Below, one piece after another: positions 2,145 through 27,036 of a stretch of 38,168 nucleotides of DNA. The first letter of the stretch is position 1. Every line of letters begins with the position of its first letter. The translations under genes and the position numbers were made by a program. Origin of the DNA: Bacteroides caecigallinarum (GTDB taxonomy: Bacteria; Bacteroidota; Bacteroidia; Bacteroidales; Bacteroidaceae); NCBI RefSeq assembly GCF_021530995.1, contig NZ_JADYTF010000020.1, positions 1 through 38,168 on the forward strand, in the 5' to 3' direction. Under the pieces are notes generated by a model. The model did not search any database. It saw nothing but the letters and a program-made list of their open reading frames with translations, and was not told the origin of the DNA.

Positions 2145-2395
2145 TTTCCCGTGCAAAAGTACTGTGGCGGGCGAATGTCAAGTACCGCCATGCTAACTGG
2201 CCGGCGTATCGGATGACAACTTTCCGCAAATCGCAGATTTGGGTATTTCATCGGCTACTCTGTACCGTTCACTTGCCTTATTGCCCTTGACCCGCAGTCT
2301 TTCCATGCACGAAAATCAATTCCCGACACGGAAGCCGGAAGAGCTTCAAGAAGAGGGAAAGGAAAAATGAAGTTCAACCAATAAAATTTGTGATT
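2145..2395 (+). repeat. Leader repeat L1
   Basis: This 251-base noncoding leader aligns almost end to end with L2 (3204-3455). It holds a small hairpin CAAATC-GCA-GATTTG (2227-2241) and a second one GAAGC-7nt-GCTTC (2331-2347). It ends with AGAGGGAAAGGAAAA 44 bases before the start codon. In L2 both stems are unchanged while the loops differ, which argues for structure. No TAnnTTTG is seen on the plus strand. A minus-strand TACTTTTG occurs at 2161-2154. The stretch 2022-2144 holds only the AbiE promoter and nothing else I can name. Confidence 0.7.
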
Positions 2396-2977
2396 ATGCC
2401 AAACTGGTGTTCAACAGCGTATGCAATAGAGGGCGACGCGAAGGAAATCAAGAGCCTCTATGAGTTAATGAAAAGACTGGAAGACATGGAAAAACCTTCA
2501 GTGGAAAACGGCTTTGGGACTACATGGCTGGGATGCCTTGTGGATGCCTTGGGCAAAGACTGGCACAACGTACATTGCCGTGGCTCGTGGAGTTGTCTCG
2601 AACTGGAAGGTGATGTGCTGAAATTCTCAACGGAAACGGCATGGTCTCCGTGTAATGAGACATTTGACCTTGTACTGGAGAAATATCCATCACTCCAATA
2701 TTATTTTCAGGCAGAAGAGCCGGGCATCGGAATATATGAGACCAACGATGAAGACGGAACATATTTCAGCGACAGATATTTCTTGGATGCCTGCACTCCC
2801 GATGAAGAATATATCAGTGAATATTTCGAGGAACTGGAAGATGCGTTCCAATGGCTTGAAGAAAAAGTCGGGAAGCCCGTCAGGTCTGTGGAGGATGTCA
2901 ATGCTCTTGCCGCTGCTTGGGAAGAACAAAATGAGGACGCTTTTTGCTATCTGCACGAGTTTGATGTGGTAAGTTGA
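2396..2977 (+). CDS. YubB/DUF1281-like protein
   Basis: The protein has 193 residues from the ATG in a GATTATG context; a GTG six bases earlier is less likely. It begins MPNWCSTAYAIEGDAKEI, and the MPNWC start plus a following ferredoxin-like alpha/beta pattern is typical of the plasmid and conjugative-element YubB/DUF1281 (Api92-like) family. It is rich in acidic and aromatic residues and has no signal peptide. No biochemical role is established for the family. It is the first gene behind a repeated leader and is closed by a hairpin at 2994-3026. Confidence 0.5.
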   Translation: MPNWCSTAYAIEGDAKEIKSLYELMKRLEDMEKPSVENGFGTTWLGCLVDALGKDWHNVHCRGSWSCLELEGDVLKFSTETAWSPCNETFDLVLEKYPSLQYYFQAEEPGIGIYETNDEDGTYFSDRYFLDACTPDEEYISEYFEELEDAFQWLEEKVGKPVRSVEDVNALAAAWEEQNEDAFCYLHEFDVVS

Positions 2978-2993
2978 CCTGCAAAAAGTATCC

Positions 2994-3026
2994 AATCACC
3001 CGAATGGCATGGCTGTTCGGGTGATT
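2994..3026 (+). terminator. Hairpin after the YubB-like gene
   Basis: A perfect 11-bp stem (AATCACCCGAA / TTCGGGTGATT) with an 11-base loop lies 17 bases after the stop codon and is followed by an AT-rich but not pure T stretch. It is probably a terminator or 3' stabiliser. The rest of 3027-3203 has no gene I can support; it carries a TTTTATA motif near 3121 also seen near L4, L5 and 27685. Confidence 0.55.
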
Positions 3027-3203
3027 ATTATGATTCCACACGCCATTCCTGACTCCTATAGCCAGTTTTAAGAAATGTCATAAAGACAAGCGCCTCTTAT
3101 ATTTTCCGACGACCTGCCTGCTTTTATACCCTGCGAGTCCCATCCATTTATATCCTGTCCCATTTCCTCGTCCTCAGCCGTCGGCACTCCTTGCCGGGAT
3201 TGA

Positions 3204-3455
3204 TTTCCCATGCGAAAGTACAGCGGCAGTCCGGATGTCAAGCATCGCTGTGCTGACATGCCTCAGAATTTGGCGGCAGCCTTCCGCAAATCCGAGATTT
3301 GGGTATTCCGCTAAATTCCTCCATGTCCTGCTTGCCGTACCGCCCTTTTCCCGCTGTGTCACTTGCATGTAAAATCTGATTCCCGCAAGGAAGCCGAAAG
3401 AGCTTCAAGAAGAGGGAAAAGAATAAACGAAGTTAAACCAATAAAATTAAAGATT
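3204..3455 (+). repeat. Leader repeat L2
   Basis: This is a 252-base diverged copy of L1 with the same order of blocks: a GCGAAAGTA block, the hairpin CAAATC-CGA-GATTTG (3287-3301), the hairpin GAAGC-7nt-GCTTC (3390-3406) and AGAGGGAAAAGAA at 3411-3423. The gene starts 45 bases after that purine block. The stems match L1 exactly while loops and flanks differ. No recognisable plus-strand -7 element is present. Confidence 0.7.
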
Positions 3456-3938
3456 ATGCACAGCAGGATTTTTCAAATTTCGACAGAACCGATTGTCAAA
3501 GAGAATTATCTCAATGAAAACACTCTCTATCAGGGTGACGGAAGTTTCTATGATTATTGCTCCAATATCGACGATGTAGAGCGCAAGGAGAATATAGCCT
3601 GCCTGGTCAAAGATATTCTTCCTAAGGGTATGTTCGAGCTGTTAGGAGATGATGCCATGCGGTACAATGGCGGTTTGGAACAATGGAAAGAGGAATATGT
3701 TACCAACATCCATAAAAGAGCGGATGCTCTTACCGTTGAGAATATGCTGGAATGGAGTTCTACCTATTACCTCAAGCGGGCGATAATAAATCCTTTGGAT
3801 ACGGAATATCACTTCTATCTGGACGGAAGCGGATGCCAGTCCTTTGCCGAACAATCCTTTGCCTTCATGCAATTTGTAAGCACATTGGAGCCGGAAGCAA
3901 TCCTCTACATCGGAGGTGTCATAGATTATCATTTCTAA
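3456..3938 (+). CDS. Conjugative-element protein of unknown function
   Basis: This 160-residue protein is read from the ATG at 3456 (GATTATG context, 45 bases after the L2 purine block); an open frame extends upstream into the leader but is not expected to be used. It is a soluble, acidic protein with many aromatic residues and no signal peptide or membrane segment. I recognise no family. It is followed 17 bases later by a small coiled-coil protein, with which it is probably cotranscribed. Its place behind a leader shared with other small ICE genes suggests an early-transfer or accessory role. Confidence 0.55.
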   Translation: MHSRIFQISTEPIVKENYLNENTLYQGDGSFYDYCSNIDDVERKENIACLVKDILPKGMFELLGDDAMRYNGGLEQWKEEYVTNIHKRADALTVENMLEWSSTYYLKRAIINPLDTEYHFYLDGSGCQSFAEQSFAFMQFVSTLEPEAILYIGGVIDYHF

Positions 3939-3955
3939 CTCTGAATTTTAAGATT

Positions 3956-4138
3956 ATGGACGAAAAGGAAAGACATAGTTTGAAACAGGAACTCCGGAGG
4001 GGACTTTCTGAATTGAGAAACCGCTTTGACGAACTGCACAAAGACCTCGAATGGGCAGAAATGACAGAGTGTTATCCTAAAGCGTCTGCCGTATATCGAA
4101 TGATTGAACGGCTGGAAGAAATTATAAGGAAAATATAA
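3956..4138 (+). CDS. Small coiled-coil protein (60 aa)
   Basis: The protein starts MDEKERHSLKQELRRGLSEL and is almost entirely charged alpha-helix with heptad-like leucines, consistent with a short coiled coil. The ATG sits in an AAGATTATGGA context identical to neighbouring genes. No family is recognised. It lies 17 bases after the preceding gene and before a long perfect hairpin. Confidence 0.55.
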   Translation: MDEKERHSLKQELRRGLSELRNRFDELHKDLEWAEMTECYPKASAVYRMIERLEEIIRKI

Positions 4139-4155
4139 TCCGTTTATTGACAACA

Positions 4156-4200
4156 ATCATCCATCACCGGCGGACAAGAGCCGTGCCGGTGATGGATGAT
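4156..4200 (+). terminator. Perfect 16-bp stem hairpin
   Basis: ATCATCCATCACCGGC is followed after 13 bases by its exact reverse complement. It starts 17 bases after the 60-residue gene and ends 18 bases before the next ATG. It lacks a following T-run, so it may be an RNA-processing or stability element, or a protein-binding site, rather than a plain terminator. Confidence 0.5.
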
Positions 4201-4218
4201 ATTCAGGAAAATACTGAT

Positions 4219-4413
4219 ATGAGAACAAAGACATTATACAGACGGGACGGCGAAAGAATCGGCATAGGCCGTTTCCCGAATTTCCACAAATCCGGGAGTA
4301 TTGTCGGAATGAAAAGACTGTACTACGGAAAGAATGCCCTGCTGGTACGCTGCGGCAGTTGGATTTACAATGTATCGGGTGAACCGCGTATTTACCACAA
4401 TTTAGCGCATTGA
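4219..4413 (+). CDS. Small basic protein of unknown function (64 aa)
   Basis: The protein starts MRTKTLYRRDGERIGIGRFP and is strongly basic, with several Tyr and Arg residues and a predicted beta-rich pattern. The upstream in-frame extension from 4147 runs through the perfect hairpin and is unlikely to be translated. It is followed three bases later by the next gene, so the two are probably coupled. No family is recognised; nucleic-acid binding would fit the charge but is not shown. Confidence 0.5.
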   Translation: MRTKTLYRRDGERIGIGRFPNFHKSGSIVGMKRLYYGKNALLVRCGSWIYNVSGEPRIYHNLAH

Positions 4414-4416
4414 ATT

Positions 4417-4710
4417 ATGGACAAGAAATTTTGTGACGAAAATCAAAGAGACAACTATGTCAGACGACTTTGCCGGAACATAGTGAACGACCGCTTCGAC
4501 TGGCGCAGATACTGCACGCCGCAGACCTATTTCGGTATCGTGATATGCGTTACTCCTCTGTTTTGCTCCTACGGCCAGATAGGATATACGGTAAGTTTTC
4601 CATACCGGCACGATATGCCGGAGGTCGAATTTGACTGGGAACTGAACAGCCTGACCCTTGACGAAATGGACTGGCGTGAATATCTTGAAGCACCGGCCGA
4701 AGAGGAATGA
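4417..4710 (+). CDS. Conjugative-element protein of unknown function (97 aa)
   Basis: The ATG is in a GAATTATGGA context. The first half is basic (several Arg, RDNYVRRLCRNIV) and the C-terminal third is acidic (EFDWELNSLTLDEMDWREY). A short hydrophobic patch in the middle (FGIVICVTPLFC) is too short for a clear membrane anchor. No family recognised. It is the last plus-strand gene of this block and converges on the ArdC gene. Confidence 0.5.
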   Translation: MDKKFCDENQRDNYVRRLCRNIVNDRFDWRRYCTPQTYFGIVICVTPLFCSYGQIGYTVSFPYRHDMPEVEFDWELNSLTLDEMDWREYLEAPAEEE

Positions 4711-4719
4711 TTAAAGCAA

Positions 4720-4748
4720 AGAGTGGCTGCCCCGCAAGGCAGCCCTCT
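4720..4748. terminator. Bidirectional terminator between convergent genes
   Basis: GGCTGCC-CCGCAA-GGCAGCC (4725-4744) is extended by AGAG/CTCT with one bulged base. It lies between the convergent stop codons at 4710 and 4768, so it can serve both transcripts. The T content downstream is only moderate. Confidence 0.6.
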
Positions 4749-4767
4749 CTGCATTTACTTTTGATTG

Positions 4768-6456
4768 TCACCTGTGGAACGCGCTCCGCTGTTCCATCTC
4801 TTCCGCCTGATATTCCTCCATACCGTTCAGCTTTTCGCTCACTTCCTCCAGATTGGCATCCAGTGATTTGTCGTAGTCGTATGGAAAGCTGTGCCGCACG
4901 GCAAGCCCCGCGTTGCATACACTCCCCACATCGAGCGAGTCGGTATCCCTGTTATAGGCGATATGCAGAATATCGCCGCTTGGCATCTCCAGCACCGGCT
5001 CCCGTTGCAGGGTCATCGCCGAGAACCGCTCTGCCGTCATGTCTCTGGCGACCTCCCTCACATCCACGCTGGCACGGTCAATGCCGTAGCGGTTGATGTG
5101 GTCGCGTACCTCCTGTTCCGAGTATTTCAGCATCACCTCATAGGTGCCGCCCACGCTCCCGTTATACACGACGGCAAAGTCCTTGTCCTCGACAAGCAGG
5201 TTATCGCCCCTGTGCTGCAAGGGGGTCTGGTAGGTGTATTGTTCATCCATGCCGTTCCCGTCATAATATTCCTTGGCGCAGGCCAGCAGCCCCTCATAGT
5301 CCCCTTTGTCCCTCAGTTCGTCCAGCCGGCTTGTGTCGTCTGTGGACTGGAGGTAGGCAACGGACGCATAGAATGTCTTTTCCTGCGGAGAGACATCTTT
5401 TTTCCCCTCTGCCATGCCTTCATCCAGACCCTGAGCAATCCTGTCCACCCTCTGCGTGATCAGGGAAGTTGCCCTTTTCACATCCAGCAGGGTCGTCTTG
5501 ATGAACTGCGGGGACTCTTTCAACTCGTCAAGCCATGATTTGAGGTATGCGCAACTGTCCTCCTTGATGTGTTTGGTCATTCCGTAGCGTTGTGATACCA
5601 GTGCGCTGCCGAGTTCGGCCACCAGTTCCTCCCTGGCATACTCTTTTGATCCGAACGAAGTCGGCTTGAGCCGGTTAAGCACACCCTCCGCACCGGTGGA
5701 ATGGGTCATCTCATGGAACAGGGTGCCGTAGAACGCTTCCCCGTCCTTGAACTGCCTCTTTTCCGGCACTACGATTTCATTCTTCGTAATGGAATAGTAC
5801 GCACTATCCTGATGCATGGGCCGTATGGGACAGATCCACAGGTTCTCGCTTATCATCCGGTCCACCGGCTCGAAGTCGAACTGTTCGCCTGCCTTGACTT
5901 CAGGACGGCCGTTTTCCTTTTCCAGTTTTTCCCACAGTTCCGGACGCGCCTCCTGCAGGTTGGTCTGCTGCACATTGAACACACGGAACACCTGCATCTT
6001 CGGATAGACATTGTACTCCTGCTTTTCATCATCGGAGAGCCTCTTGTAGTCGTCATACTTGATTTTCTCTTTCGTTTCCTTGTGTATGCAGGTGAATGTG
6101 GTAAGCATCACCGGGAAGGATTTCTCGCCGCGCAGTACGGAAACCCTCGGCAGTTCCTGTCCGTCCTTGCCCGGCTTGTTCATGCGCTGTACGCAGTCGA
6201 ATGTGCAGAAGCGGGGTATCTTGTATCCCTCTTTCTCGCAATGCAGGAGCAGCATGAGGGCGTTCATTCCGTTGTATTCGCGACCGGACAGGTTACGAGG
6301 CCACTGCAACACGCCTTCCGTGAACCAGGGCTTGCGCCAGTCCTTGCTGATGCTCTCTATCTTTTCAATCATCATTTCGGCGAACAGGTCGAGAGCCTTC
6401 TCCTCGCTGTTCGGTCCGTCCGTCTTCTGTCGTCTGTAACCGGCCATATCCGTCAC
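4768..6456 (-). CDS. ArdC-type antirestriction protein with zinc metallopeptidase domain
   Basis: The protein has 562 residues from a GTG at 6456 (the next ATG is 6447). The N-terminal 150 residues are an ArdC-type ssDNA-binding domain (DWRKPWFTEGVLQWPRNLSG). A zincin motif HEMTH lies at residues 248-252, followed by a distal EELVAELGSALV helix, matching the PolyVal-type metallopeptidase domain fused to ArdC. Family members protect incoming conjugative DNA from restriction. The C-terminal 200 residues are acidic and of unknown role. The start overlaps the TGA of the SSB-like gene, so the two are coupled. It is the last gene of the long minus-strand operon. Confidence 0.85.
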   Translation of the reverse strand: MTDMAGYRRQKTDGPNSEEKALDLFAEMMIEKIESISKDWRKPWFTEGVLQWPRNLSGREYNGMNALMLLLHCEKEGYKIPRFCTFDCVQRMNKPGKDGQELPRVSVLRGEKSFPVMLTTFTCIHKETKEKIKYDDYKRLSDDEKQEYNVYPKMQVFRVFNVQQTNLQEARPELWEKLEKENGRPEVKAGEQFDFEPVDRMISENLWICPIRPMHQDSAYYSITKNEIVVPEKRQFKDGEAFYGTLFHEMTHSTGAEGVLNRLKPTSFGSKEYAREELVAELGSALVSQRYGMTKHIKEDSCAYLKSWLDELKESPQFIKTTLLDVKRATSLITQRVDRIAQGLDEGMAEGKKDVSPQEKTFYASVAYLQSTDDTSRLDELRDKGDYEGLLACAKEYYDGNGMDEQYTYQTPLQHRGDNLLVEDKDFAVVYNGSVGGTYEVMLKYSEQEVRDHINRYGIDRASVDVREVARDMTAERFSAMTLQREPVLEMPSGDILHIAYNRDTDSLDVGSVCNAGLAVRHSFPYDYDKSLDANLEEVSEKLNGMEEYQAEEMEQRSAFHR

Positions 6457-7064
6457 CTGTTATCGTTGCCGGCATCCGGCACATACTGGCTGAGTTCTTC
6501 CACCCGGCAGGAGATGTCCGGCTTGCCATCATACAGCGAGAGGGACATTTCGCCTTTCACATCCACCTTGACGCCCGGCTGCAGCCATTCCTCCTTTTCC
6601 TTGCCGAAACAGAAGAAGCGCACCCATTGGTACTCGAAGCCGTCATTGACCTTTTCCGCGCTGAATGCGGAGAATATCTGGTACGGCTTGCCGCTTTTGT
6701 CCTTGCGCTCTTCTATGTGCTGGCCGATCTTTCCACGGAATACCATCTGCCCCTTGAAGGAATCCATATTCCCAACATCGGAAAGGCTGACGGAATCCGC
6801 CGACAGGTTGAAATAGAGTTTCTCGCCTCTGCGCTTCAGAAAAAGGGTGCCTGCAACCTTGACCCGGGAACCGTACTTGAAGCCGTTGGCTTCATCCTGT
6901 CCGCCGTCTTTGCTGACGCTGATTTCCAGACTTCCGCCATTCCCGTCCTTTCCGGGAACAGAAACCTGCAGAGGGAAACTTACGAACTCCTTGCCGTCCT
7001 TGCCTGTGCGGACGGAGGCGTCGCGGCAGATTGTGCCGCATATTGTGACATTGCATTTAATCAT
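6453..7064 (-). CDS. Single-stranded DNA-binding-like OB-fold protein
   Basis: The 203-residue protein begins with an SSB-like OB fold: an N-terminal beta strand (KCNVTICGTICRDASVRTG), a central strand pattern and a second OB-like half from about residue 105 (FRGKIGQHIEERKDKSGKPY). It seems to hold two OB-like halves, longer than a one-domain SSB core and without the usual acidic DDDIPF-type tail. It would coat entering ssDNA. Its stop overlaps the start of the ArdC gene, a pairing that fits protection of transferred DNA. Confidence 0.7.
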   Translation of the reverse strand: MIKCNVTICGTICRDASVRTGKDGKEFVSFPLQVSVPGKDGNGGSLEISVSKDGGQDEANGFKYGSRVKVAGTLFLKRRGEKLYFNLSADSVSLSDVGNMDSFKGQMVFRGKIGQHIEERKDKSGKPYQIFSAFSAEKVNDGFEYQWVRFFCFGKEKEEWLQPGVKVDVKGEMSLSLYDGKPDISCRVEELSQYVPDAGNDNR

Positions 7065-7144
7065 CGCTTGTATTTTTTATGTGTGACATTTTCCATCGGA
7101 AGGCGGAAGCTGCCCTGTTGAAGTTGAACCGGGTAAATCAGCCG

Positions 7145-7318
7145 CTAATCGGGTGCCCTAATACGGATGTAGATTATCCATGCGGCAAGCAGTACCTGTA
7201 TCCCGATGATGACAAATGCCACCATGCGGCTGAACAGCATAAAGTACATGACGGTATGCAGCACGCAGGCGGACAATCCGAGTAAATAAACACATAATTG
7301 CATCATCACGCTTTTCAT
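7145..7318 (-). CDS. Small two-helix membrane protein (57 aa)
   Basis: An ATG at 7318 gives MKSVMMQLCVYLLGLSACVL and ends IYIRIRAPD at a TAG. Two hydrophobic segments, about residues 4-25 and 31-52, are separated by a very short turn, so this is a hairpin-type membrane protein. It sits three bases after the stop of the wall hydrolase and 80 bases before the SSB-like gene, in the same operon and direction. No family is recognised. Conserved hydrophobicity and tight spacing are the only evidence. Confidence 0.55.
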   Translation of the reverse strand: MKSVMMQLCVYLLGLSACVLHTVMYFMLFSRMVAFVIIGIQVLLAAWIIYIRIRAPD

Positions 7319-7321
7319 ATT

Positions 7322-8833: not shown

Positions 8834-8846
8834 GTCATATTCTTGT

Positions 8847-10799
8847 TCATCGTTTCAATCCTGTAGTCTGTTCTTCTTCCCTCAGTTCTTGCTGCCGTTC
8901 GACCGATGACCCTGTTTCGGGGGCATTACCCTGTACCTGCCCTTGCCGCATTACATCGGAGAAAAGCGAGGCAGCCAGATGGAGCTTATATCCGTCCCTG
9001 TCCTCGGCAAGCCACATCCGTTGCCATTGTTGTTGCGTGATGCTTCTCGGCTCCAGCCTGCGTCCGTCAATGGTCGCCGCACACAGGATACCATCTTTTT
9101 TCGTCTTGAAAACGGAGACACGCTGTATCCGGCTCAGGTCTGCATCATCCGCCCCACAACTGAACAGGTCAACTTTCAGGTCGGGTTTCGTCTCTGCAAG
9201 GGCGTAATACTTGTGTGCCAGCTCCATGCGAACCTTATCAATGTTGTCCATTGCCTGCTTGAGCGTGGAGAAGAACCGGTTCACATCCTCCTTGTCAGGA
9301 TAGACGCTGTAGCCGCTTTCGTTCTCCGGTTTGATGTAGAGTGCCCAGCGGTTCTTGTCGTCCTGTATCATCTGCACCCGGTCGAAGCCGACCTCGCAAG
9401 CCTGTTTCACCGCAGGAGCCACATCAAGCGTGGAAAGTTCCTGTATATCCCAGTTCTTCAAGCGGGCCAAAGCAACTTCTTTCCCGGAGAAATAGCTGTC
9501 ATCAGGTCTGAATCCCATTGCCCCATCCGGATTGAAGAACTTTATCTGTTCGAATCCCTCTTTCTGCAAGGCCCGTTCGATGCGTGCCTTGTTCATGCCC
9601 GGAATTTCATTGTCCACTTCCAATGACGCGCCGGCAGGCAGAATCACATCCGCAGACTTCGAGGCTTTGTCCCTTACCACGACAATGGTCTTTTTGTCTT
9701 TGTCCGGGTGGCGGGCTATCTCGTCTGCAATGGCATGGTGTTTCGGGAGCTGTTCCCTCATGCCGGTTGTCTGTCTCCGATTACACAGGGTGGCGTATTC
9801 GATTTTCTCGCCGCGTTCCGCCTTGCGGATTACTTCGAGGGCGTTGTTCACATCGCTTTCGAGAGCGGCCATCATGAGCGGGTTCTCACGCAGCTCCCGG
9901 TTCCAGTAATCCACTGTCTTCAGGCTCTCTTCCGACAACCTTGCGGGCAGGCCGAGCTCCAGCATCTTGATTCCGGAAGCCACTTCCACGACAAGCCTTT
10001 CCTGCTTCAGCGCATCTTCCGAGGGTGCCATGCCGTTCTTCATCACCATGCCTTCACGGGCAAGGCGTTGCTGATGCCCGGTGGCACTGACTATCTGCCG
10101 CAGGGTCTCCTGCATATAGTCATGGTAATGGTCGAAATCCCGTTGCCGGGGCATATAGACGGCATCCCTGTCCGTCTCGTAATGGGGCATCCCGCTTCCG
10201 TCATAGCGGACAGGCACGAGGTTGTCTTTCATTTTCAGCAGAAAGTCATTGAACCGGATATGCAGTTTGCGGTCATCGGCTTCCGTATGGCCTTTGTCTG
10301 CGGCATTTCCGTATTGCTCCAATGCAGCCTCGTAGGATTCCCGGTCAATATCGGGCAGCGTGGTCTGGTCGATATTGAAAAGGGTGCGTATCTCCCGGTT
10401 ATGCACGCCCTTGTAATGTTTCCTGTCCTGTGCGTCCAGTCCGAGATAGGCCGTGCGGCTGATAATCTCCTCCGGATTGTTCCGGTTGACATACTTGTTC
10501 CAGTTGTAGAAAAGGAAAGGCACGCCACGCTCATGTTCCCGGACGGATGCGCCCATTGCCTTGGCTTCGTTGAAAAGGGTGAACAGGTTCGTCCTGCATC
10601 CGTTCCTGTCCGAATGGAGGGCCATGAACAGCCCGTTGAAGGGACTGACGGACACACCGCGCGGATAGAATTTCGGATAGCCCTTGCCGGAGGCATTCAG
10701 CCAGTATCCGTTTGCACTTGAGGCACCGTTCAAGGCTTCGGAGAGCAGTTCTGTCTGCTTCTTCTCTGCATTTTTCTCTATGGGTGATTTCTCTTTCAT
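8847..10799 (-). CDS. ArdC-like N-terminal domain protein without zincin motif
   Basis: This 650-residue protein has an ArdC/DUF1738-like N-terminal region (NGYWLNASGKGYPKFYPRG and NEAKAMGASVREHERG), a pattern of ssDNA-binding proteins on conjugative elements. No HExxH is found, so the peptidase half of ArdC is missing. The middle and C-terminal parts contain helix-rich segments and a repeat-like KFFNPDGAMGFRPDDSYF region seen in DUF3945-type proteins, but I cannot assign domains with certainty. It lies in the same operon as the full ArdC and SSB-like genes, so a role in protecting or processing entering DNA is a reasonable inference. Confidence 0.65.
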   Translation of the reverse strand: MKEKSPIEKNAEKKQTELLSEALNGASSANGYWLNASGKGYPKFYPRGVSVSPFNGLFMALHSDRNGCRTNLFTLFNEAKAMGASVREHERGVPFLFYNWNKYVNRNNPEEIISRTAYLGLDAQDRKHYKGVHNREIRTLFNIDQTTLPDIDRESYEAALEQYGNAADKGHTEADDRKLHIRFNDFLLKMKDNLVPVRYDGSGMPHYETDRDAVYMPRQRDFDHYHDYMQETLRQIVSATGHQQRLAREGMVMKNGMAPSEDALKQERLVVEVASGIKMLELGLPARLSEESLKTVDYWNRELRENPLMMAALESDVNNALEVIRKAERGEKIEYATLCNRRQTTGMREQLPKHHAIADEIARHPDKDKKTIVVVRDKASKSADVILPAGASLEVDNEIPGMNKARIERALQKEGFEQIKFFNPDGAMGFRPDDSYFSGKEVALARLKNWDIQELSTLDVAPAVKQACEVGFDRVQMIQDDKNRWALYIKPENESGYSVYPDKEDVNRFFSTLKQAMDNIDKVRMELAHKYYALAETKPDLKVDLFSCGADDADLSRIQRVSVFKTKKDGILCAATIDGRRLEPRSITQQQWQRMWLAEDRDGYKLHLAASLFSDVMRQGQVQGNAPETGSSVERQQELREEEQTTGLKR

Positions 10800-17482: not shown

Positions 17483-17486
17483 AAGG

Positions 17487-19046: not shown

Positions 19047-19067
19047 TGTATGATCGGGTGTTAGATG

Positions 19068-19292: not shown

Positions 19293-19313
19293 GACTGTTT
19301 CCGGTTCAGAGGG

Positions 19314-20239: not shown

Positions 20240-20255
20240 GAAAGTCCTCACGGCA

Positions 20256-20288: not shown

Positions 20289-20292
20289 CCGC

Positions 20293-20928: not shown

Positions 20929-21753
20929 CCTGCGCTTGATGGTGTGGACTATATGTTCTCCCCAGACATGGGCCTTTATCAGGAACAGCGGCGGCATCGT
21001 GACCGTCTTCCCGTAGAAGATGGCCGCCACCACCTCGCCGCCGCACTGTTCTATTTCACCTTTGAAATCCAGCAGGCTTTGGCCGCTTGTGAACACGTCA
21101 TCGATGATGATGATTCTTTTTCCCCTGATGCTTCCCGTAATGCTGTAGTTCCTTTCCAGAATGCGCTCGCTTCCCTTGCTCTCGTGCAGGCTCTCGCGGG
21201 CATCCGCCACATCCACATCGTAAAGTCCGGAGGTCAGTTCCGGCCGGTGGGTCGTGATGTACCAGTGAAGTCGCTTGAAACGCTGCCCGTACTTTATCCA
21301 GTTGCTGCACGGCATGAACATGATATGGCACGAGGCCGTATCCAGCGGCAGGGCCGCCATGCAAGCTTTGAAAAAAGGAATGCCGTGGTTCTCTCCCTCC
21401 TTGAAGGCATAGAGGGAACGGCAGAACTCTCGCTGTTCTTCGCTGAGCAGCTTTTTGTACCGCGACGGATAGTAGTGCCCGTAGAACGCCACGCTTATGC
21501 CTTGGAAGCGGAAGGGTTTGAGCGGATGCCTGTCCTCGAAAAAGTCGGAACGGGCGAAGCAGAACATCCTGCAGGCATCCCTGTTCCCGGCCATCACAGC
21601 CAGACGGCAGTAGCGGTCACGTTCTTCCGCCTTGTCCGTGAGCAGGGCGGCGGCAAATGCGGCATTCCCGGCTTTCTTTCTCCAGTAACCGATAAGGTAA
21701 ATCAGCACGACCGCTATGCAGACCAATATCAGAAACACCAGCCTCGGTTCCAT
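20914..21753 (-). CDS. Membrane-anchored phosphoribosyltransferase-like protein
   Basis: The 279-residue protein starts MEPRLVFLILVCIAVVLIYL, one N-terminal membrane anchor, followed by a helical segment that resembles a Sel1/TPR-like pair (LAVMAGNRDACRMF). Residues 214-226 give IIIIDDVFTSGQS, the PRPP-binding loop of type I phosphoribosyltransferases, as in ComF-like proteins. The zinc-finger cysteines of ComF are not obvious. Membrane anchoring is unusual for this family. It may act in nucleotide salvage or as a DNA-uptake-related protein, but this is not shown. It overlaps the convergent M23 gene by 15 bases. Confidence 0.7.
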   Translation of the reverse strand: MEPRLVFLILVCIAVVLIYLIGYWRKKAGNAAFAAALLTDKAEERDRYCRLAVMAGNRDACRMFCFARSDFFEDRHPLKPFRFQGISVAFYGHYYPSRYKKLLSEEQREFCRSLYAFKEGENHGIPFFKACMAALPLDTASCHIMFMPCSNWIKYGQRFKRLHWYITTHRPELTSGLYDVDVADARESLHESKGSERILERNYSITGSIRGKRIIIIDDVFTSGQSLLDFKGEIEQCGGEVVAAIFYGKTVTMPPLFLIKAHVWGEHIVHTIKRRSHVL

Positions 21754-21781
21754 TGCAGTTTAGATGGTGACAATGGCTACT

Positions 21782-22693
21782 TCACATTCTGTCTTTCCAA
21801 AGACTTTCGTTTTTCCAATCGTCAGGAAAACCCATTGCCCTTACATCGATGGATGGATATCGCTTCAGAAGTTCGCAGAACCTTGGAACAAACGAATGGT
21901 TCGGATTGACCGTGTTCAGCAGATAGATGATCATGCTCAATACGAAATAGGTCTGCTGTGTTCCGCCGGCCGGCAATACAATAAAAGTGTTGCGCGGAGA
22001 ACGCGGCATCAGCGGACGGATGCTTAGAGACCTATTCCACAATCGGCTGTGGTGCGCACAGATATTCCTTACATACACGATGCAGTGCAGCCATGATGCG
22101 AAAACCTTGTCTGCCAGCCCAAAGTAGGCGGCTATGGAACGCTTGGCCCGTCCAGGCAACAGGTTCCCGTACAAAATGGAGAGTGTGCCGAATGAGGCTA
22201 TTTCCATTGTAATCCAGCTTGGCGGGAAGTGGTCAGAATATTTCGCCTTGAACGCCGTTATGAACTCTTCATCGCTGCGGCTGTATTCTTCATCGATTTT
22301 AGACAGGATTTTTGCATAGCGGACAGGGTTTGAGAAAAGCGAGGCATCTTCAAACCAGTGCGCATGATACTGTGACGAAAGGATATATGCCGTCTGTGTA
22401 CGGACAGCCACCTCTATCTTTTCAAGCTCGGCTATAATCAATTTGCGGAGTTCGCTGTCAAACTTGTAGATGTTATAGGCAGCCTCAAATGTGCTGCCCG
22501 GTTTGAAAATATGCTGTTGCTTGTCCGCCAGAAGCGGATACCAGTAACCGCTCAAACGGTAATAACTGATGTTCTGGAGCAGGTGGAGGGCTTTGGCTTC
22601 ATCCCCGAAAACCATGCCCCTCTGTTTGAGCAGACTTATCTGATCCGTAAAGGATATGAGCTGTTTGGGATAAGGTGTCTTGTTCGTTGTCAT
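21782..22693 (-). CDS. Abi_2 (AbiD/F) family abortive-infection protein
   Basis: The 303-residue protein is read from the ATG at 22693 (MTTNKTPYPKQLI). It has the Abi_2 pattern NISYYRLSGYWYPL near residues 41-54 and a HEPN-type R-x4-H ribonuclease motif at R209-N-I-C-A-H214. Such proteins cleave RNA on phage infection. An in-frame extension to 22804 overlaps the promoter and is rejected. It has its own promoter and a short hairpin followed by a T-run before the ATG, suggesting controlled expression. It lies between conjugation and accessory genes as cargo. Confidence 0.8.
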   Translation of the reverse strand: MTTNKTPYPKQLISFTDQISLLKQRGMVFGDEAKALHLLQNISYYRLSGYWYPLLADKQQHIFKPGSTFEAAYNIYKFDSELRKLIIAELEKIEVAVRTQTAYILSSQYHAHWFEDASLFSNPVRYAKILSKIDEEYSRSDEEFITAFKAKYSDHFPPSWITMEIASFGTLSILYGNLLPGRAKRSIAAYFGLADKVFASWLHCIVYVRNICAHHSRLWNRSLSIRPLMPRSPRNTFIVLPAGGTQQTYFVLSMIIYLLNTVNPNHSFVPRFCELLKRYPSIDVRAMGFPDDWKNESLWKDRM

Positions 22694-22700
22694 GGGTATA

Positions 22701-22724
22701 TAAAATAAAAAGCTCACCCTGAGC
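22701..22724 (-). terminator. Attenuator-like hairpin in the Abi leader
   Basis: On the minus strand GCTCA-GGG-TGAGC (22724-22712) is followed by TTTTTATTTTA, the look of a weak intrinsic terminator, ending eight bases before the ATG at 22693. It lies between the promoter and the coding region, so it could limit read-through of a potentially toxic gene. Strength is uncertain because the stem has only five base pairs. Confidence 0.5.
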
Positions 22725-22762
22725 GCGCTGTTCTTACGGGAAGCGGGGTAAGCATGTTGCTG

Positions 22763-22793
22763 CAAAGGTAATACATTTCTCCTGTCCCACAAA
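22763..22793 (-). promoter_or_regulatory. Promoter of the Abi_2 gene
   Basis: TTTG (22793-22790) and TACCTTTG (22770-22763) lie 19 bases apart on the minus strand, a full consensus promoter, about 70 bases before the ATG. Confidence 0.65.
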
Positions 22794-22887
22794 ATTTTCA
22801 TCAAGTTTTCTCTTCCTTTTTATAATTTCCTTCTCTTCCTTATCTCGTGCATCCCATTATATACTGTTTTCATTCTGCAACGAAATC

Positions 22888-22931
22888 CTAATCGGAAAAA
22901 CCGTCATTACATGACACTTTTTTTCGATTAG
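22888..22931. repeat. Nested inverted repeat (cruciform-like)
   Basis: An outer 13-bp inverted repeat, CTAATCGGAAAAA at 22888-22900 against 22919-22931 (one G-T wobble), encloses a smaller GTCAT-TAC-ATGAC at 22903-22915. It lies in an AT-rich strip (22794-22930) between the divergent Abi gene and leader L3. This could be a terminator pair, an operator or a recombination/transfer site; the sequence alone does not decide. Confidence 0.55.
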
Positions 22932-22939
22932 TACATCAT

Positions 22940-23245
22940 CCCGAAACCGTTTTCACTGCTTTTCTCTTTTACCCTGCATTCCGTCCATTCAGCCGTGCAG
23001 CCTTCCGGGAATTATTTTACTGCAAAATTCCACGGTCGTCACAATCCGGACAATGCCGTTAGGCCGCCGGGGGTGATCCGGAAAAATCTTCCTCTCCGCC
23101 GTCGAGCGTATTTCTCCGTCCAGCCTTGTACGGTTGTTCCTTGCCGCCCTTCGGGGCAGAAAAATAATCCCGGCGGTCGCAAGCAGGCCGAACAGAGGGA
23201 AAAGAAAGACGACAGACAATGTTGAACTCTAAATATCAAATGATT
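22940..23245 (+). repeat. Leader repeat L3
   Basis: A 300-base GC-rich stretch with no gene I can support. Its last part shares a 21-base block (23187-23207, ending in CAGAGGGAAAAGAAA) exactly with L4 and L5, and it lies before a gene with a GATTATG start. The upstream 250 bases are diverged from L1, L2, L4 and L5. No plus-strand TAnnTTTG is visible. Confidence 0.6.
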
Positions 23246-23470
23246 ATGACGGAAGAAATAAGACAGGACGGCAAAGTGGTATTGTCAAGCGACGCCGAAC
23301 ACGCAATACCCATGATTTTCAACAACCTTTGCGGAAAGAACTTCTCAGGGGAAGAATACCGTAACTATATCCGCTATGTAGCCCTCGGCGAAATGGGCTT
23401 CAAGCCCGGACGTATCGAACTTTACAGGGATGGGGAACTGCTGAAGCATGGCGACATCCCGAAACTCTGA
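23246..23470 (+). CDS. Small conjugative-element protein (74 aa)
   Basis: The start is placed at 23246 because the ATG sits in the GATTATG context shared by the neighbouring genes; ATGs at 23240 and 23219 are in the same frame. The protein begins MTEEIRQDGKVVLSSDAEHA and is acidic with a likely alpha/beta fold; ending in a GDGELLKHGD-like strand. No family is recognised. It is followed 42 bases later by a 210-residue gene on the same strand. Confidence 0.5.
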   Translation: MTEEIRQDGKVVLSSDAEHAIPMIFNNLCGKNFSGEEYRNYIRYVALGEMGFKPGRIELYRDGELLKHGDIPKL

Positions 23471-23512
23471 ATACACTCATGTCATCAAATTAAAATATAA
23501 ACAGTCATACTT

Positions 23513-24145
23513 ATGGATATGGAATCGACCAACATTCATCCGGCGGAAGCATATCTTCGTAGCACAGCCAATCCGCCATCGCTGTATGTGAAGATATACG
23601 GCAAACGCAGACGGCTGTTCATCAACCGGGGCGAAAACGTCATCGGTATTGTCGCACCGGGAAAACGCAAGTCTGGCTATTACTTTTCAGACTGGCAGTC
23701 CATAGAGAAAATCTATTATCCGACAGTCGAAGCGGATACGGACAAGGAGCGAAAACTCGTTTTGAAGTACAAACGGCTTGCAGCCCTTGCCTTTCATACC
23801 AACAGCTGGCTTCGCAGGATTGCCGCAGCCGACCCGGAGAAGTCCCTCTTTGAAAACCATCTCACGACAGGGACAAGGATTGACGGGATGTGCATCCGCC
23901 TGACAACGATAGAGAAATATTGCGGCAGTACGGAAATGGCTCTGTTCAGAAAGGCAATGAAGGACGGAAGAAGTTTCTCGACCTGTCGCTTTGATTTTTG
24001 CGGCTATGACGGCTCACTCTGGTGCGAGCCGGACAAAGACGAGGGTATGAAAGCCGGCTTCAGCAAGGAATACCGGGGTTGTCTGAACGGCTACTATTAC
24101 CTGATGATAAACGATGAGTTCATGATTGGGTATGATGTGGACTGA
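23513..24145 (+). CDS. Conjugative-element protein of unknown function (210 aa)
   Basis: The protein starts MDMESTNIHPAEAYLRSTAN; an internal ATG at 23519 is also possible. It is basic in its first third (KIYGKRRRLFINRGENVIG) and has many aromatic residues, with a DGRSFSTCRFDFCGYD segment near residue 150. There is no signal peptide or membrane segment. I recognise no family. It is probably cotranscribed with the small gene upstream and ends at a strong hairpin. Confidence 0.5.
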   Translation: MDMESTNIHPAEAYLRSTANPPSLYVKIYGKRRRLFINRGENVIGIVAPGKRKSGYYFSDWQSIEKIYYPTVEADTDKERKLVLKYKRLAALAFHTNSWLRRIAAADPEKSLFENHLTTGTRIDGMCIRLTTIEKYCGSTEMALFRKAMKDGRSFSTCRFDFCGYDGSLWCEPDKDEGMKAGFSKEYRGCLNGYYYLMINDEFMIGYDVD

Positions 24146-24164
24146 AGCGCATCGAGTCCGGGAA

Positions 24165-24206
24165 GGAGCCGTGTCGGACGGCATTGTCTGATACGGCTCC
24201 CGTTTT
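24165..24206 (+). terminator. Terminator after the 210-residue gene
   Basis: GGAGCCGT (24165-24172) pairs with ACGGCTCC (24193-24200), with further pairs inside the loop, and is followed by CGTTTT. It lies 20 bases after the stop codon. The following 24207-24700 holds no gene I can support; a TTTTATA motif near 24615 resembles ones before L2 and L5. Confidence 0.65.
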
Positions 24207-24700
24207 CCGGTCTGCCGACGGCAGAAACCTTTATAGCCTTTCATTCCCTTTTCTAATTCGGCCTTTCCCATTCCTGAAATAAGGAAAGATGTCTGTGCCG
24301 CAGTCCGCCCTGCATTACAGGTACGGAAGGCTGCGCCGGAGCAACGGCAGCCTGTCTCATGCCGCTTCATGCCGGAGCTTCAACGACAGTTGAAACAACA
24401 CGGTATTCCGCTTGACAAGGCATCCTGCTGATCGTTGCTCTGGCGCATTGCGCCTTTCATCCGTATCTTTCCATTACGGGCCGATTGCGTCATGGGCAAA
24501 CGGTGACACATTCCGCTTTGCGCCGTCCGTCGTGCCTCCAGCTCTCGCAAGGCGGAAAGAGTCCCCTTTGTGTTTGCCCGGCAGACCGTTGTTTGTCCCG
24601 CCCGGCCGTTGTCACTTTTATAGATTCCATCCACACCGTTTCTATTCCGGCAACGCCGTCATCCCTTTCTACCGTCTCGGAGCCTTTCTTTTCTCGCCGT

Positions 24701-24944
24701 CCATGCCGCCACCGCCGCAGGTTTTGTCGGTGCGAATGTAGGCTGCCGTGCCTGTTCCCTCCGTTTTGAAGTGCATTTCCGGCAAATTCTTCCTTGCGAG
24801 CAAGAGTAATTCGCCGGAAAAAACATCGGGAATGGCTTCTCCGGCGGCCTTCCCTGCACCGTAAAACCCGAAGCGGCTCCGGCAGTAAGGAGCCGAACAG
24901 AGGGAAAAGAAAAAATAATTATTAACAAATTAAATTATTGAATT
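24701..24944 (+). repeat. Leader repeat L4
   Basis: Bases 24701-24914 match L5 (26801-27014) with five substitutions. It contains a 45-base hairpin (24776-24820: TTTCCGGC and GCCGGAAA around an inner CTTGC-GA-GCAAG) and a second hairpin CGGCTCC-8nt-GGAGCCG (24874-24895), then AGAGGGAAAAGAAAA (24899-24913) and an AT-rich spacer to the ATG at 24945. A minus-strand open frame crosses both copies but starts in different contexts and is not convincing as a gene. No TAnnTTTG was found on the plus strand. Confidence 0.8.
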
Positions 24945-26654
24945 ATGGAAATGACAAACATTCAGTCAGCAGCGAGAAACATCGTATCGGTGGCATTGGC
25001 GGACATCCAGCCGAGTGGTTACAACCCACGCAAGACCTTTGACGAGACAAGCCTTGCCGAACTTGCCGAGAGCATACGGCAGCAGGGCGTGTTGCAACCT
25101 ATCGGAGTGCGCCCCATAGAGGAAAACCGCTATGAGGTCATCTTCGGCGAGCGCAGATACCGTGCATCGCTCATGGCAGGGTTGGAAACCATTCCGGCAG
25201 TCATGCACGAAGTGACGGACGAGGTGGCGGAGGAAATGGCGGTCACGGAGAACCTTCAGCGAAAGGATGTGACGCCCATAGAGGAAGCCAACGCCTATCA
25301 GAAACTGATAGAGAGCGGTCGGCACGATGTTCATTCGTTGGCAGTCCAGTTCGGAAAGTCGGAGGACTATATCCGCACAAGGCTCAAATTTACAACCTTG
25401 ATACCCGAAATCGCAGCCCTCTTGGAAGCGGACGAGATAACCATCAGTGTGGCGAGCGAAATCTGCCGTTACGGGGAGGACATACAGAAAGAGGTGTACG
25501 AAAGGCATCTGAAAGACAACGGCTACAACAGTTGGCGTGGCATGAAAGCCGAAGATGTGGCAAGGCGCATCGAGCAGGACTTCACGACCGACCTCAATCG
25601 CTATTCCTTTGACAAGACCCTGTGCCTGTCCTGTCCGCACAATACCAACAACATGATGCTGTTCTGCGAGGGAGCTTGCGGTAAGTGCGCCAATCGGAAA
25701 TGCCTTGAGGACATGAACGCATCCTACCTTGTGGAAAAAGCCTTGCAAATGTTGGCCGAACATCCGACCGCCTCACTCGGCCGTCATCCCTATGCCTGCA
25801 ACGAGACAGCCGTCAGCCGTCTTGCGGAACTCGGATATGAAGTGGAAACCTTGCCATACCGCTATGGGGAATATCCCGAACTGCCCGAAATCCCCACTGC
25901 GGAGGATTACGAGACTACAGAAGAATACGAGGAAGCACAAAAGGACTATGAGCAGGAGCAGGAGGATTACAAGGCGGAATGTGAGGACATCCTGCGCAGA
26001 AGCGAAGAGGGGGAAATATCGCTCTATGTCATTGTCGGGCGCAGCGACCTTTCTCTCGGCTATGTGGAGACCGCAGCGATGAATGCCGCAGAGGGCGCAA
26101 CCACGGCGGACAAGGAGCAGATGACACCGCTTGAGAAGTTGGAGAAGCAGGACAGGCGGAACAAGGAAATTGCCCTTGAAAAGACCGTAGAGGACACCAA
26201 GAAGCGGATTTTGGAGGTGGACACCACCGAAACCAAGTTCGGTGCGGACGAGGACAAGATGATTTATTACTTCCTGCTTACATCGCTTCGCAAGGAGCAT
26301 TATGCAGCCGTAGGCATTGATAGTGAAAATGTGTACTGTCTTTTCGACAAGGACAAAATGAATATCATTGAAAATCTGAACGGCAAGGCGAAAGCCATTA
26401 TCCGCAGGGATTTTCTGATAGCCAATTTCAAAGACGCATTCGGTAGTAATACCGTAGCCACCCTCTTGCTCGGTTTTGCACAGAAGCACATGCCCGAAAC
26501 CCTTGCTGAAATCCGTAAGGGCTATGATGAAGTGTACGAGAAACGCCACCAGCGTATCGAGGAAAAGAAAGCGGTTCTCATGGTGCAGGACAAGGCGAAG
26601 CAGGAAGAAACGCAACCCGAAGAAAGCCGTCAAGCCGAAGATGTAGCGGCCTGA
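24945..26654 (+). CDS. Large ParB-like protein with a cysteine cluster
   Basis: The 569-residue protein has ParB box I (ALADIQPSGYNPRK, residues 17-30), box II with GERRYRAS at 68-75 and ENLQRKDVTPIEEA at 102-115, and an HTH-like block near 130-148 (SLAVQFGKSEDYIRTRL). The N-terminal domain of ParB binds and hydrolyses CTP. Residues 227-253 hold six cysteines (C227, C230, C241, C245, C248, C253), perhaps a zinc or iron-sulfur cluster. The C-terminal half is acidic and coiled coil-like. No parA gene is in the window, so it probably acts as a DNA-loading or anti-SOS-type factor, not classical partition. It is the second gene family behind the repeated leader. Confidence 0.8.
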   Translation: MEMTNIQSAARNIVSVALADIQPSGYNPRKTFDETSLAELAESIRQQGVLQPIGVRPIEENRYEVIFGERRYRASLMAGLETIPAVMHEVTDEVAEEMAVTENLQRKDVTPIEEANAYQKLIESGRHDVHSLAVQFGKSEDYIRTRLKFTTLIPEIAALLEADEITISVASEICRYGEDIQKEVYERHLKDNGYNSWRGMKAEDVARRIEQDFTTDLNRYSFDKTLCLSCPHNTNNMMLFCEGACGKCANRKCLEDMNASYLVEKALQMLAEHPTASLGRHPYACNETAVSRLAELGYEVETLPYRYGEYPELPEIPTAEDYETTEEYEEAQKDYEQEQEDYKAECEDILRRSEEGEISLYVIVGRSDLSLGYVETAAMNAAEGATTADKEQMTPLEKLEKQDRRNKEIALEKTVEDTKKRILEVDTTETKFGADEDKMIYYFLLTSLRKEHYAAVGIDSENVYCLFDKDKMNIIENLNGKAKAIIRRDFLIANFKDAFGSNTVATLLLGFAQKHMPETLAEIRKGYDEVYEKRHQRIEEKKAVLMVQDKAKQEETQPEESRQAEDVAA

Positions 26655-26676
26655 CCTTCCATAATTCAGTTCAGAA

Positions 26677-26700
26677 GCAGGGCGGAGCAATCCGTCCTGC
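26677..26700 (+). terminator. Hairpin with GCAA tetraloop after the ParB-like gene
   Basis: GCAGGGCGGA-GCAA-TCCGTCCTGC is a ten-pair stem with one G-T wobble and a GNRA-type tetraloop, 22 bases after the stop codon. There is no T-run, so it may be a 3' stability element or terminator. The next 100 bases hold no gene and lead into L5. Confidence 0.5.
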
Positions 26701-26800
26701 ATACTGTCGTGTGCCGGCCATCCCTTTTTTAGCACTCTATCCTTTTCTAACCTCCCGTCAACCTTTTATACCGGTCTGAATTGTCTCTTGTCCCAGTCCT

Positions 26801-27036
26801 CCATGCCGCCACCGCCGCAGGTCTTGTCGGTGCGAATGTAGGCTGCCGTGCCTGTTCCCTCCGTTTTGAAGTACATTTCCGGCAAATTCTTCCTTGCGGG
26901 CAAGAGTAATTCGCCGGAAAAAACATCGGGAATGGCTCCTCCGGCGGCCTTCACTGCACCGTAAAACCCGAAGCGGCTCCGGCAGTAAGGAGCCGAACAG
27001 AGGGAAAAGAAAAACAATTCATTAAATTTCAAGATT
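26801..27036 (+). repeat. Leader repeat L5
   Basis: This is the near-identical second copy of L4. The long hairpin is at 26876-26920 with its loop changed from GA to GG, which keeps every stem pair. The second hairpin (26974-26995) is unchanged. The AGAGGGAAAAGAAAA block is at 26999-27013, 38 bases before the ATG. A TTTTATA motif lies just upstream at 26764. Confidence 0.8.

Follow-up and report, generated by a model that had tools for sequence, protein, structure and literature searches.

Candidate single-strand-DNA promoters with a reversed Bacteroidota promoter box in repeated leaders of Bacteroidales ICEs

Five repeated leaders stand ahead of plus-strand genes in the window, a 38,168-nt stretch of Bacteroides caecigallinarum DNA. 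On comparative sequence grounds, we think it probable that these leaders are Frpo-type single-strand-DNA promoters with a Bacteroidota sigma box, which would be fired from the entering T-strand. A sequence-only reading of the window had named such promoters (Frpo/ssi-like) as one possible role. The idea gains from a reversed promoter box at a fixed alignment column, covariation of a DNA type, a strand bias, and the kinds of genes served, and from these we infer firing in the recipient.

Three related leader families

The sequence-only reading treated the leaders (L1, 2145 to 2395; L2, 3204 to 3455; L3, 22940 to 23245; L4, 24701 to 24944; L5, 26801 to 27036) as a single family. The repeats are real, but repeat comparison and profile searches, in which all five appear near full length, assign L4 and L5 to family A, L3 to family B, and L1 and L2 to family C; given these separate profiles, we speak of three related families rather than one uniform family. 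L4 and L5 form a 226-nt direct repeat with 96% identity, L1 and L2 have blocks of 45, 56, and 76 nt in common (72 to 82% identity), and a 24-nt end (GCCGAACAGAGGGAAAAGAAA...) is common to L3 and L4/L5. The shared end reported before the start codons was likewise recovered, with AGAGGGAAA(A/G)GAA beginning 38 to 52 nt before the ATG, provided that the L3 gene starts at 23246. In L4, sequence comparison also picks out the stretch AGAGGGAAAAGAAA (24899 to 24912, plus strand).

The three families recur beyond the window in related Bacteroidales ICEs, where the earlier reading had proposed to look for them; the element of P. gordonii has 15 leaders over a span of more than 100 kb. Profile searches took the place of iterated BLAST, which had strayed into coding sequence. 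The 66 aligned leaders comprise 35 rows of family A, 20 of family B, and 11 of family C. Alignment A4 consists of 34 A representatives and L5, and alignment A3 is without one of the 12 C representatives (L055:17791-18076, which has no box and an unrelated upstream half); to this extent the 66 aligned rows differ from the 66 profile-search representatives. A covariance model (R1, based on an RNAalifold structure of 18 pairs, with strict filters), run on 247 order-level genomes, picked out leaders in a single genome, that of the window itself; either the element is sporadic or the model missed distant leaders. Short motifs were rejected as leader markers: for the AGAGGGAAAAGAA motif alone, AAGAGGGAAARGAA matches 44 of 151 family genomes and a backward control pattern about half as many, while ACAGAGGGAAARGAAA matches 5 of 151, and the 4 loci that it gave outside the window's genome (L034, L035, L037, and L038) are leader-free by BLAST.

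A promoter box that points away from the gene

TAnnTTTG is the Bacteroidota promoter consensus (-7 box). The statement that the leaders lack a visible Bacteroidales promoter holds for the gene's strand only; on the opposite strand, TAnnTTTG is present at the leaders' upstream end. No plus-strand copy lies between 150 nt before and 10 nt past any of L1 to L5, and only one was found in the 16,439 plus-strand positions of the 66 aligned leaders. On the minus strand, a single alignment column carries the box exactly in 29 of 66 leaders (7 of 35 A, 13 of 20 B, and 9 of 11 C rows). Allowing one mismatch raises the count to 62 of 66, compared with 1.2% of all minus-strand positions. Families B and C add a TTG at about -33 on the same strand; none is clear in family A.

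Within the window, all of these elements lie on the minus strand. Box scan and alignment column agree on TACTTTTG in L1 (2154 to 2161, read from 2161 to 2154), on TACTTTCG, with one mismatch, in L2 (3213 to 3220), and on TACATTCG in L5 (26833 to 26840). The same TACATTCG is found in L4 by scan, alignment, and fold (24733 to 24740, mostly unpaired between two stems), and the alignment column places a degenerate version, GAATTTTG, in L3 (23023 to 23030). A -33-like TTGAC accompanies the box in L1 (2177 to 2181, with 17 nt between TTG and the -7 box) and, by alignment and DNA fold, in L2 (3237 to 3241).

Could this be a switch caught in the wrong position? Phase-variable invertible promoters are known in Bacteroides, and inverted arms with an outward-facing promoter are what one in its OFF orientation would display. 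The leaders already contradict this idea, which we regard as scarcely credible: none of the 66 is in the ON orientation, since the minus strand carries the box column throughout and an exact plus-strand box turns up just once, and the arms are imperfect repeats.

A conserved hairpin, probably of DNA

Each leader folds into a hairpin of about 150 to 200 nt that brings the reversed box together with a gene-proximal arm; the coordinates that follow are for minus-strand DNA folds. In family A, the L4 hairpin (24720 to 24868) has stems at 24720-24725/24863-24868, 24728-24733/24856-24861, and 24740-24748/24842-24850, plus inner stems, and is backed by family covariation; that of L5 spans 26820 to 26968. 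The L3 hairpin (family B, 23005 to 23173) has a 17-bp outer stem (23005-23023/23156-23173), again with family covariation. In family C, the L1 hairpin (2150 to 2311) closes with CGTGCA (2150 to 2155) against TGCACG (2306 to 2311), has more stems inside, and is likewise backed by covariation, while that of L2 (3202 to 3376) pairs CATGC (3209 to 3213) with GCATG (3365 to 3369) near its base. When leaders are folded singly, most of the box is free of pairing in no more than 21 of 35 A, 5 of 20 B, and 4 of 11 C leaders, a point against the promoter reading.

Folded alone, L2, L4, and L5 have z scores of -4.4, -4.1, and -3.7, whereas L1 (-1.5) and L3 (-0.6) are not unusual, so that the hairpin in these two rests on the families. 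A z score of -3 or lower was obtained for 44 of 66 leaders versus 5 of 66 control upstream windows. The covariation check suggested by the sequence-only reading came out positive in all three families: cells changed on both sides number 170 in A, 64 in B, and 53 in C, compared to shuffled means of 53.8, 20.7, and 21.2, and pairing falls from 84 to 91% to 28 to 53% when the partner is slid along. A covariation measure based on further pair types was unremarkable, being reached by 93 of 500 shuffles in B and 49 of 500 in C.

In the main hairpin, read on the mRNA strand, G-U pairs number 59 versus 171.3 expected and A-C pairs 92 versus 195.1 (summed). G-U is thus as depleted as A-C, which argues for a DNA hairpin and against the riboregulator that had been another suggested role. 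A riboregulator or attenuator acting in an mRNA from a distant promoter would account for a strong conserved fold ahead of genes, and the small hairpin nearer the start codon (CGGCTC/GAGCCG, 24874 to 24895, plus strand, where the 5' UTR of an L4 transcript is presumed to lie; helix 11 of the family A covariation) may be an RNA element, its G-U count being 17 versus 23.9 expected in A and 5 versus 3.2 in B. For the main hairpin, however, a G-U-tolerant RNA-strand fold was not found, Rfam has no match within the window, no plus-strand TAnnTTTG lies near the leaders, and the reversed box and strand bias would go unexplained; we consider this role very improbable.

The box might instead act in double-stranded DNA as a conventional promoter that fires outward and produces antisense or regulatory RNA, as its near-consensus minus-strand sequence and the -33 TTG of B and C would allow, or the inverted arms might serve an ICE regulator as a protein-binding site or as a cruciform, and the apical sequences, highly conserved in families A and B, could bind a protein. 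Yet RNA from the reversed box would exclude the hairpin and so leave the covarying gene-proximal arm unexplained, no minus-strand gene is recognized left of L2, L4, or L5, and no promoter would remain for the plus-strand genes. We judge this pair of possibilities unlikely. Covariation, Watson-Crick bias, and z scores together point to a non-coding stretch that folds as a single-stranded DNA stem-loop, and within the hairpin the promoter elements lie in the stem, oriented to the gene, when judged by the TAnnTTTG consensus and with no -33 element evident in A.

Genes served and a proposed mechanism

All five genes lie on the plus strand. L4 precedes a ParB-like gene (24945 to 26654, 569 aa) and L3 a DUF7688 gene (23246 to 23470, translated from 23228). 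The L1 gene (2396 to 2977, 193 aa) is weakly DUF1281-like, below the Pfam cutoff; neither the L2 gene (3456 to 3938, 160 aa), which has a homologue behind a C leader in P. gordonii, nor the L5 gene (27037 to 27312, 91 aa), which belongs to the second largest cluster (19) of leader-served genes, falls in a Pfam family. An open reading frame of at least 50 aa directly follows 153 of 156 leaders, near-identical loci included, and the genes served include ssb (SSB), parB, and DNA N6-methylase/helicase genes, so that ssb and other establishment genes are among them.

Do the hairpins serve these genes or the strand itself? The ssi/sso sites of ICEBs1 and rolling-circle plasmids are strand-specific single-stranded DNA hairpins used by host RNA polymerase, and by description the leaders resemble them. 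The leaders might mainly yield polymerase-made primer RNA for second-strand synthesis along a long T-strand, with mRNA secondary, as the strand bias, the many copies over more than 100 kb, and a hairpin with a polymerase box would permit; the title of a 1997 paper by Masai and Arai, cited in PMC11541004, presents Frpo itself both as a promoter and as a site of primer synthesis. But ssi/sso sites serve to prime DNA synthesis and have no fixed link to a gene downstream, whereas the leaders are followed by open reading frames almost throughout and keep a conserved AGAGGGAAA stretch before the start codon that primers would not need. A priming role also depends on the same T-strand polarity, and as the main function it seems to us improbable.

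In the mechanism that we favor, the strand transferred into the recipient would be complementary to the leader genes, and the leader would fold back on itself. The 3' arm of the hairpin would be the non-template strand, with the -7 box TAnnTTTG and, in B and C, the TTG at about -33; the 5' arm would be the template, continuous into the gene. Starting near the hairpin base, the host's RNA polymerase, carrying its primary sigma factor, could then leave the hairpin and transcribe the single-stranded gene template, giving an mRNA with a 5' UTR of about 76 to 86 nt in which the small hairpin and the AGAGGGAAAAGAAA stretch would lie. The folds predict start sites, used in recipients only, at about 2309 to 2313 for L1, 3370 for L2, 23161 for L3, 24861 for L4, and 26961 for L5. 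Second-strand synthesis would then abolish the hairpin and leave the box facing away from the gene, which would fall silent. A backward-pointing promoter makes sense if it is active solely as a folded single strand entering a new cell, as in the F plasmid of E. coli; transfer polarity, polymerase use, start sites, and timing are steps that we infer.

We further speculate, with our judgment evenly balanced, that an "entry regulon" spans the whole element in Bacteroidales ICEs. It would consist of up to 15 single-strand promoters, built on the Bacteroidota sigma box and without sequence relationship to Frpo, that would switch on establishment genes from the incoming strand, shut themselves off once double-stranded, and probably also prime synthesis of the second strand over a length of more than 100 kb.

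Strand bias and transfer polarity

With near-identical loci counted, leaders lie on the ParB strand in 119 of 119 cases and on the relaxase strand in 22 of 22, and they sit among tra operons of opposite direction. In the P. gordonii element, 15 of 15 are on one strand. Five of these 15 precede the relaxase gene, on what would be the leading side, and the other 10 are elsewhere; this dispersal over the element, not just beside oriT, counts against a Frpo-like reading. The P. gordonii relaxase was recognized in the 57- to 171-kb stretch by an HxDExxPHxH motif in translation, and PF01076 matched in the window genome's own copy (G000:C387); PF03432 and Bacteroid_MobB matches in P. gordonii fall outside that stretch and were rejected as the element's relaxase.

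Which strand is transferred? An oriT-like block, AGCCTAATACCCC...CAGCAAGCTG, sits upstream of the MOBV-type relaxase gene, with an inverted repeat and then an invariant block on the strand complementary to that gene, an arrangement that favors transfer of the complement of the leader genes. Four distant MOBV loci (L128 to L131) are without the AGCCTAATACCCC block and keep a GAGCAAGCTC hairpin, and neither lies near the gene for most of 29 further MOBV relaxases in this genus. Two relaxases that belong to the same broad type, pMV158 MobM and MobSag, make their nick on the mob-coding strand (PMC5863519, PMC5090054). Were the same true here, the coding strand of the leader genes would be the one transferred, and our model would fail in the recipient.

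Comparison with known systems

In the literature compared here, early expression from single-strand promoters has been demonstrated for the F plasmid and proposed for others, with Frpo relatives proposed in ColIb-P9 and other plasmids. According to PMC9849209, the hairpins of Frpo1 and Frpo2 rebuild -35/-10 boxes on the transferred strand, and the likeness to the leaders is that of a non-coding hairpin upstream of establishment genes (ssb and others). The leaders differ in their Bacteroidota TAnnTTTG box, in numbering up to 15 across one ICE, in the MOBV-type relaxase, and in that their early expression is predicted. Sequence homology was not detected between the F Frpo1/Frpo2 regions and the 66 representatives (best E value, 0.06), and a scan of F Frpo2 for reversed sigma-70 boxes gave six loose candidates on each strand and no clear reversed-box hallmark.

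If our reading is correct, a sequence-unrelated version with another sigma consensus would mean that the trick is general and that single-strand promoters arose independently in a phylum with a different promoter code. It would account for the way in which Bacteroidales ICEs turn on their ssb, parB, and methylase genes as they enter a cell, and make early gene expression in Bacteroidota conjugation directly testable. It would also supply a search rule: seek DNA hairpins whose gene-distal arm holds a promoter box on the wrong strand and that keep to a single strand of the element.

The leading-region anti-defense islands of Samuel et al. (2024), as presented in PMC11541004, pair candidate single-stranded DNA promoters with genes for SSB, a methylase, and ParB-type proteins that share one strand, the same combination as in the leader regions. 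The string "Bacteroid" is absent from its main text, and the candidate search set out there used the E. coli -35/-10 consensus and so would miss TAnnTTTG. The annotated F leading region itself has SSB, a ParB-family protein, a DNA methylase, an antirestriction protein, and PsiB on one strand, and the leader genes share with it SSB, ParB, and a methylase, here a methylase-helicase.

The reversed promoter box

The five leaders that the sequence-only reading had described as repeats are indeed repeats by sequence comparison within the window: L4 (24701-24944) and L5 (26801-27036) form family A, L3 (22940-23245) family B, and L1 (2145-2395) and L2 (3204-3455) family C. Three family profiles, made from BLAST relatives of these leaders, were searched against 88 loci (1.13 Mb) and gave 156 leader matches, 119 unique sequences and 66 representatives. 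Bacteroidales promoters have the consensus TAnnTTTG at -7 and TTG/TTTG at -33. That the leaders lack a visible promoter of this kind holds for the plus strand, where TAnnTTTG is absent from the five leaders of the window and its exact form occurs once in 16,439 positions of the aligned leaders, but not for the minus strand, where a box lies at the leader's upstream end: TACTTTTG in L1, TACTTTCG in L2 and TACATTCG in L4 and L5. When each family was aligned (35 rows for A in alignment A4, 20 for B in A2 and 11 for C in A3), this reversed box occupied one column, exact in 29/66, with one mismatch in 33/66 and with two in 4/66, against a background for at most one mismatch of 1.2% of all minus-strand positions in the leaders. 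Read by eye, 20/20 B rows and 10/11 C rows have a TTG some 17-22 nt upstream of the box; none was seen in the 35 aligned rows of family A.

What would place a promoter on the "wrong" strand, facing away from its gene? A single-stranded DNA hairpin promoter looks like this when viewed as double strand: because its template arm must continue into the gene, the sigma box falls in the gene-distal, non-template arm. The pattern is present in all three families. Could the box instead be an ordinary double-strand promoter firing to the left? The plus-strand genes would then have no promoter, and no gene that the box could serve was recognised left of L2, L4 or L5; this explanation fits worse than a single-strand promoter. 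An Abi_2-family gene (21782-22720, minus) adjoins L3 and has its own TACCTTTG box at 22770.

Hairpin structure and the folded strand

Folded as DNA, the leaders are predicted to form hairpins, and in the family A consensus fold the reversed box lies in an internal loop between the stems GATGC/GCATC and GGCTGnCG/CGnCAGCC. Covariation in these hairpins is borne out: cells changed on both sides number 170, 64 and 53 (A, B and C) where shuffling gave means of 53.8, 20.7 and 21.2; the observed counts were reached by 0/500 shuffles in each family, and sliding the partner by 1-3 columns lowers pairing from 84-91% to 28-53%. These controls are partial, in that the shuffles ignore relatedness and the tested structures derive from the same alignments; a weaker measure, further pair types, was equalled by 12, 93 and 49 of 500 shuffles and is unremarkable in B and C. 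When leaders were folded singly (minus strand, G-T pairs disallowed), z was at or below -3 in 44/66 (30/35 A, 9/20 B, 5/11 C), compared with 5/66 control windows, which were sampled from 246 that precede other ORFs of these loci. In these single folds, 21/35 A leaders leave at least 4 of the 8 box bases unpaired, as do 5/20 in B and 4/11 in C, so that only in family A is a melted box the usual state. Sequence conservation peaks at the hairpin tip (TCTTCC ... GNGTA(A/T)TT; window 24777-24819 and 26877-26919), which has the same place in the A and B alignments and may be a protein site or an upstream promoter element.

Is the folded molecule RNA, as a riboregulator would require? A folded mRNA would tolerate G-U but not A-C. 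In the main hairpin, G-T is depleted (observed/expected 27/98.9, 19/43.0 and 13/29.4 in A, B and C) as much as A-C (38/103.3, 42/61.0 and 12/30.8), so that the riboregulator role once proposed fits worse than a single-strand promoter. The slight A-C excess, equivalent to G-T on the complementary strand, weakly hints that it is the minus strand that folds. For the small hairpin on the start-codon side, the counts are too few to tell RNA from DNA (G-T 17/23.9, 5/3.2 and 8/10.4; A-C 10/17.0, 6/5.7 and 15/17.5).

Strand bias and the genes served

Leaders lie on the ParB strand in 119/119 cases (ParB-oriented loci plus the window) and on the relaxase strand in 22/22, with leaders in 9/11 relaxase loci; near-identical loci are included in these counts. 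In a Parabacteroides gordonii element with its integrase near 57.7 kb and its last leader near 171 kb (loci L078-L085), 15/15 leaders share one strand, opposite to the integrase, the recognised tra genes, MobC and part of the T6SS cargo. A group II intron reverse transcriptase/maturase also lies within this element (L083:8045-9712, minus).

The window holds part of an ICE on one contig of 38,168 bases (G000:C122), with tra-type genes on the minus strand and the genes behind the five leaders on the plus strand. Its partial MobC coupling protein (37218-38072, minus) has a reading frame of just 284 aa where the family model spans 655 positions, and at the contig end (region 37218-38168) another plus-strand gene starts, preceded by a TATCTTTG box; based on these two observations, the MobC gene was probably disrupted by an insertion.

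For 153/156 leaders, an ORF of 50 aa or longer starts near the leader's end. The largest clusters served are ParB (22), the L5 gene (19), SSB (16), DUF4313 (16) and a 1657-aa N6-methylase/helicase (11), with one member each of the last three checked against Pfam; DUF7688, DUF1281 and LPD11 also occur, and the P. gordonii SSB gene (89417-89830) is preceded by a B leader. The F leading region likewise has SSB, a ParB-family protein, a DNA methylase, an antirestriction protein and PsiB annotated on one strand. Two ArdC-like proteins and one SSB-like protein of the window (ArdC and SSB-like genes at 4768-7064, and 8847-10799, minus) lie at the tra-block end; their genes run opposite to the leaders, and none has a leader in front.

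Likely polarity of transfer

The relaxase, encoded on the leader strand, is of MOBV type by its motif HLDELNPHIH; PF01076 matched the copy in the window's genome (G000:C387), and homologues occur in 17/19 genomes examined. Upstream of its gene, conserved sequence marks an oriT-like block (L085 ~5950-6140, minus; L086-L108). Within it, GCCTAATACCCC, which does not vary across 24 aligned upstream regions, comes before an inverted repeat whose sequence does vary; a spacer and the small hairpin CAGC-AA-GCTG follow. The exact 13-mer AGCCTAATACCCC has 20 unique contexts, with CAGCAAGCTG in 20/20. On the transferred strand (T-strand), the usual order is repeat, then nic. The relaxase gene's complementary strand has the inverted repeat and, directly after it, the invariant block, an order by which the T-strand would be the template of the leader genes, and from the sequence we consider this likely. 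The typical placing of relaxases in the lagging region, as described by Samuel et al. (PMC11541004), fits. Counting against it are the nick on the mob-coding strand described for pMV158 MobM and MobSag (PMC5863519 and PMC5090054), and the distant MOBV loci, which keep only the small hairpin of the block.

Comparison with Frpo

Frpo1 and Frpo2 of F are described as single-strand folds that restore -10/-35 boxes and are required for early expression (PMC9849209). That our leaders work like Frpo, as putative single-strand promoters, is well supported by the sequence evidence; neither a riboregulator nor an ordinary promoter that had been overlooked fits as well. Membership in Frpo is unsupported, as homology is lacking: no sequence similarity to Frpo1/Frpo2 was found (best E 0.06). 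Unlike these, the leaders are distributed across the element, and a reversed sigma-70 box scan of Frpo2 gave six loose candidates on each strand, the hallmark not being clearly seen. The literature searched, with subscription papers largely outside it, contained nothing relevant on single-strand promoters in Bacteroides, and "relaxase," "oriT" and "promoter" are all absent from the main texts of the two searched papers on Bacteroidales T6SS ICEs.

Distribution among genera

Plasmid records with leaders numbered 3 (L4 query) and 4 (L2 query) among 72,556. Relatives of the ParB behind L4 were found in 29 loci, in Bacteroides, Phocaeicola, Parabacteroides, Mediterranea, Xylanibacter, Leyella, Barnesiella, Duncaniella and others. 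Three of the collected loci, from Parabacteroides, Phocaeicola and Leyella (L043, L067 and L068), are identical over the 303 nt that end at the parB start, which suggests recent cross-genus transfer. A ParB locus of the same ICE type (L061) lies in a metagenome bin labelled Acetatifactor, through either contamination or cross-phylum transfer.
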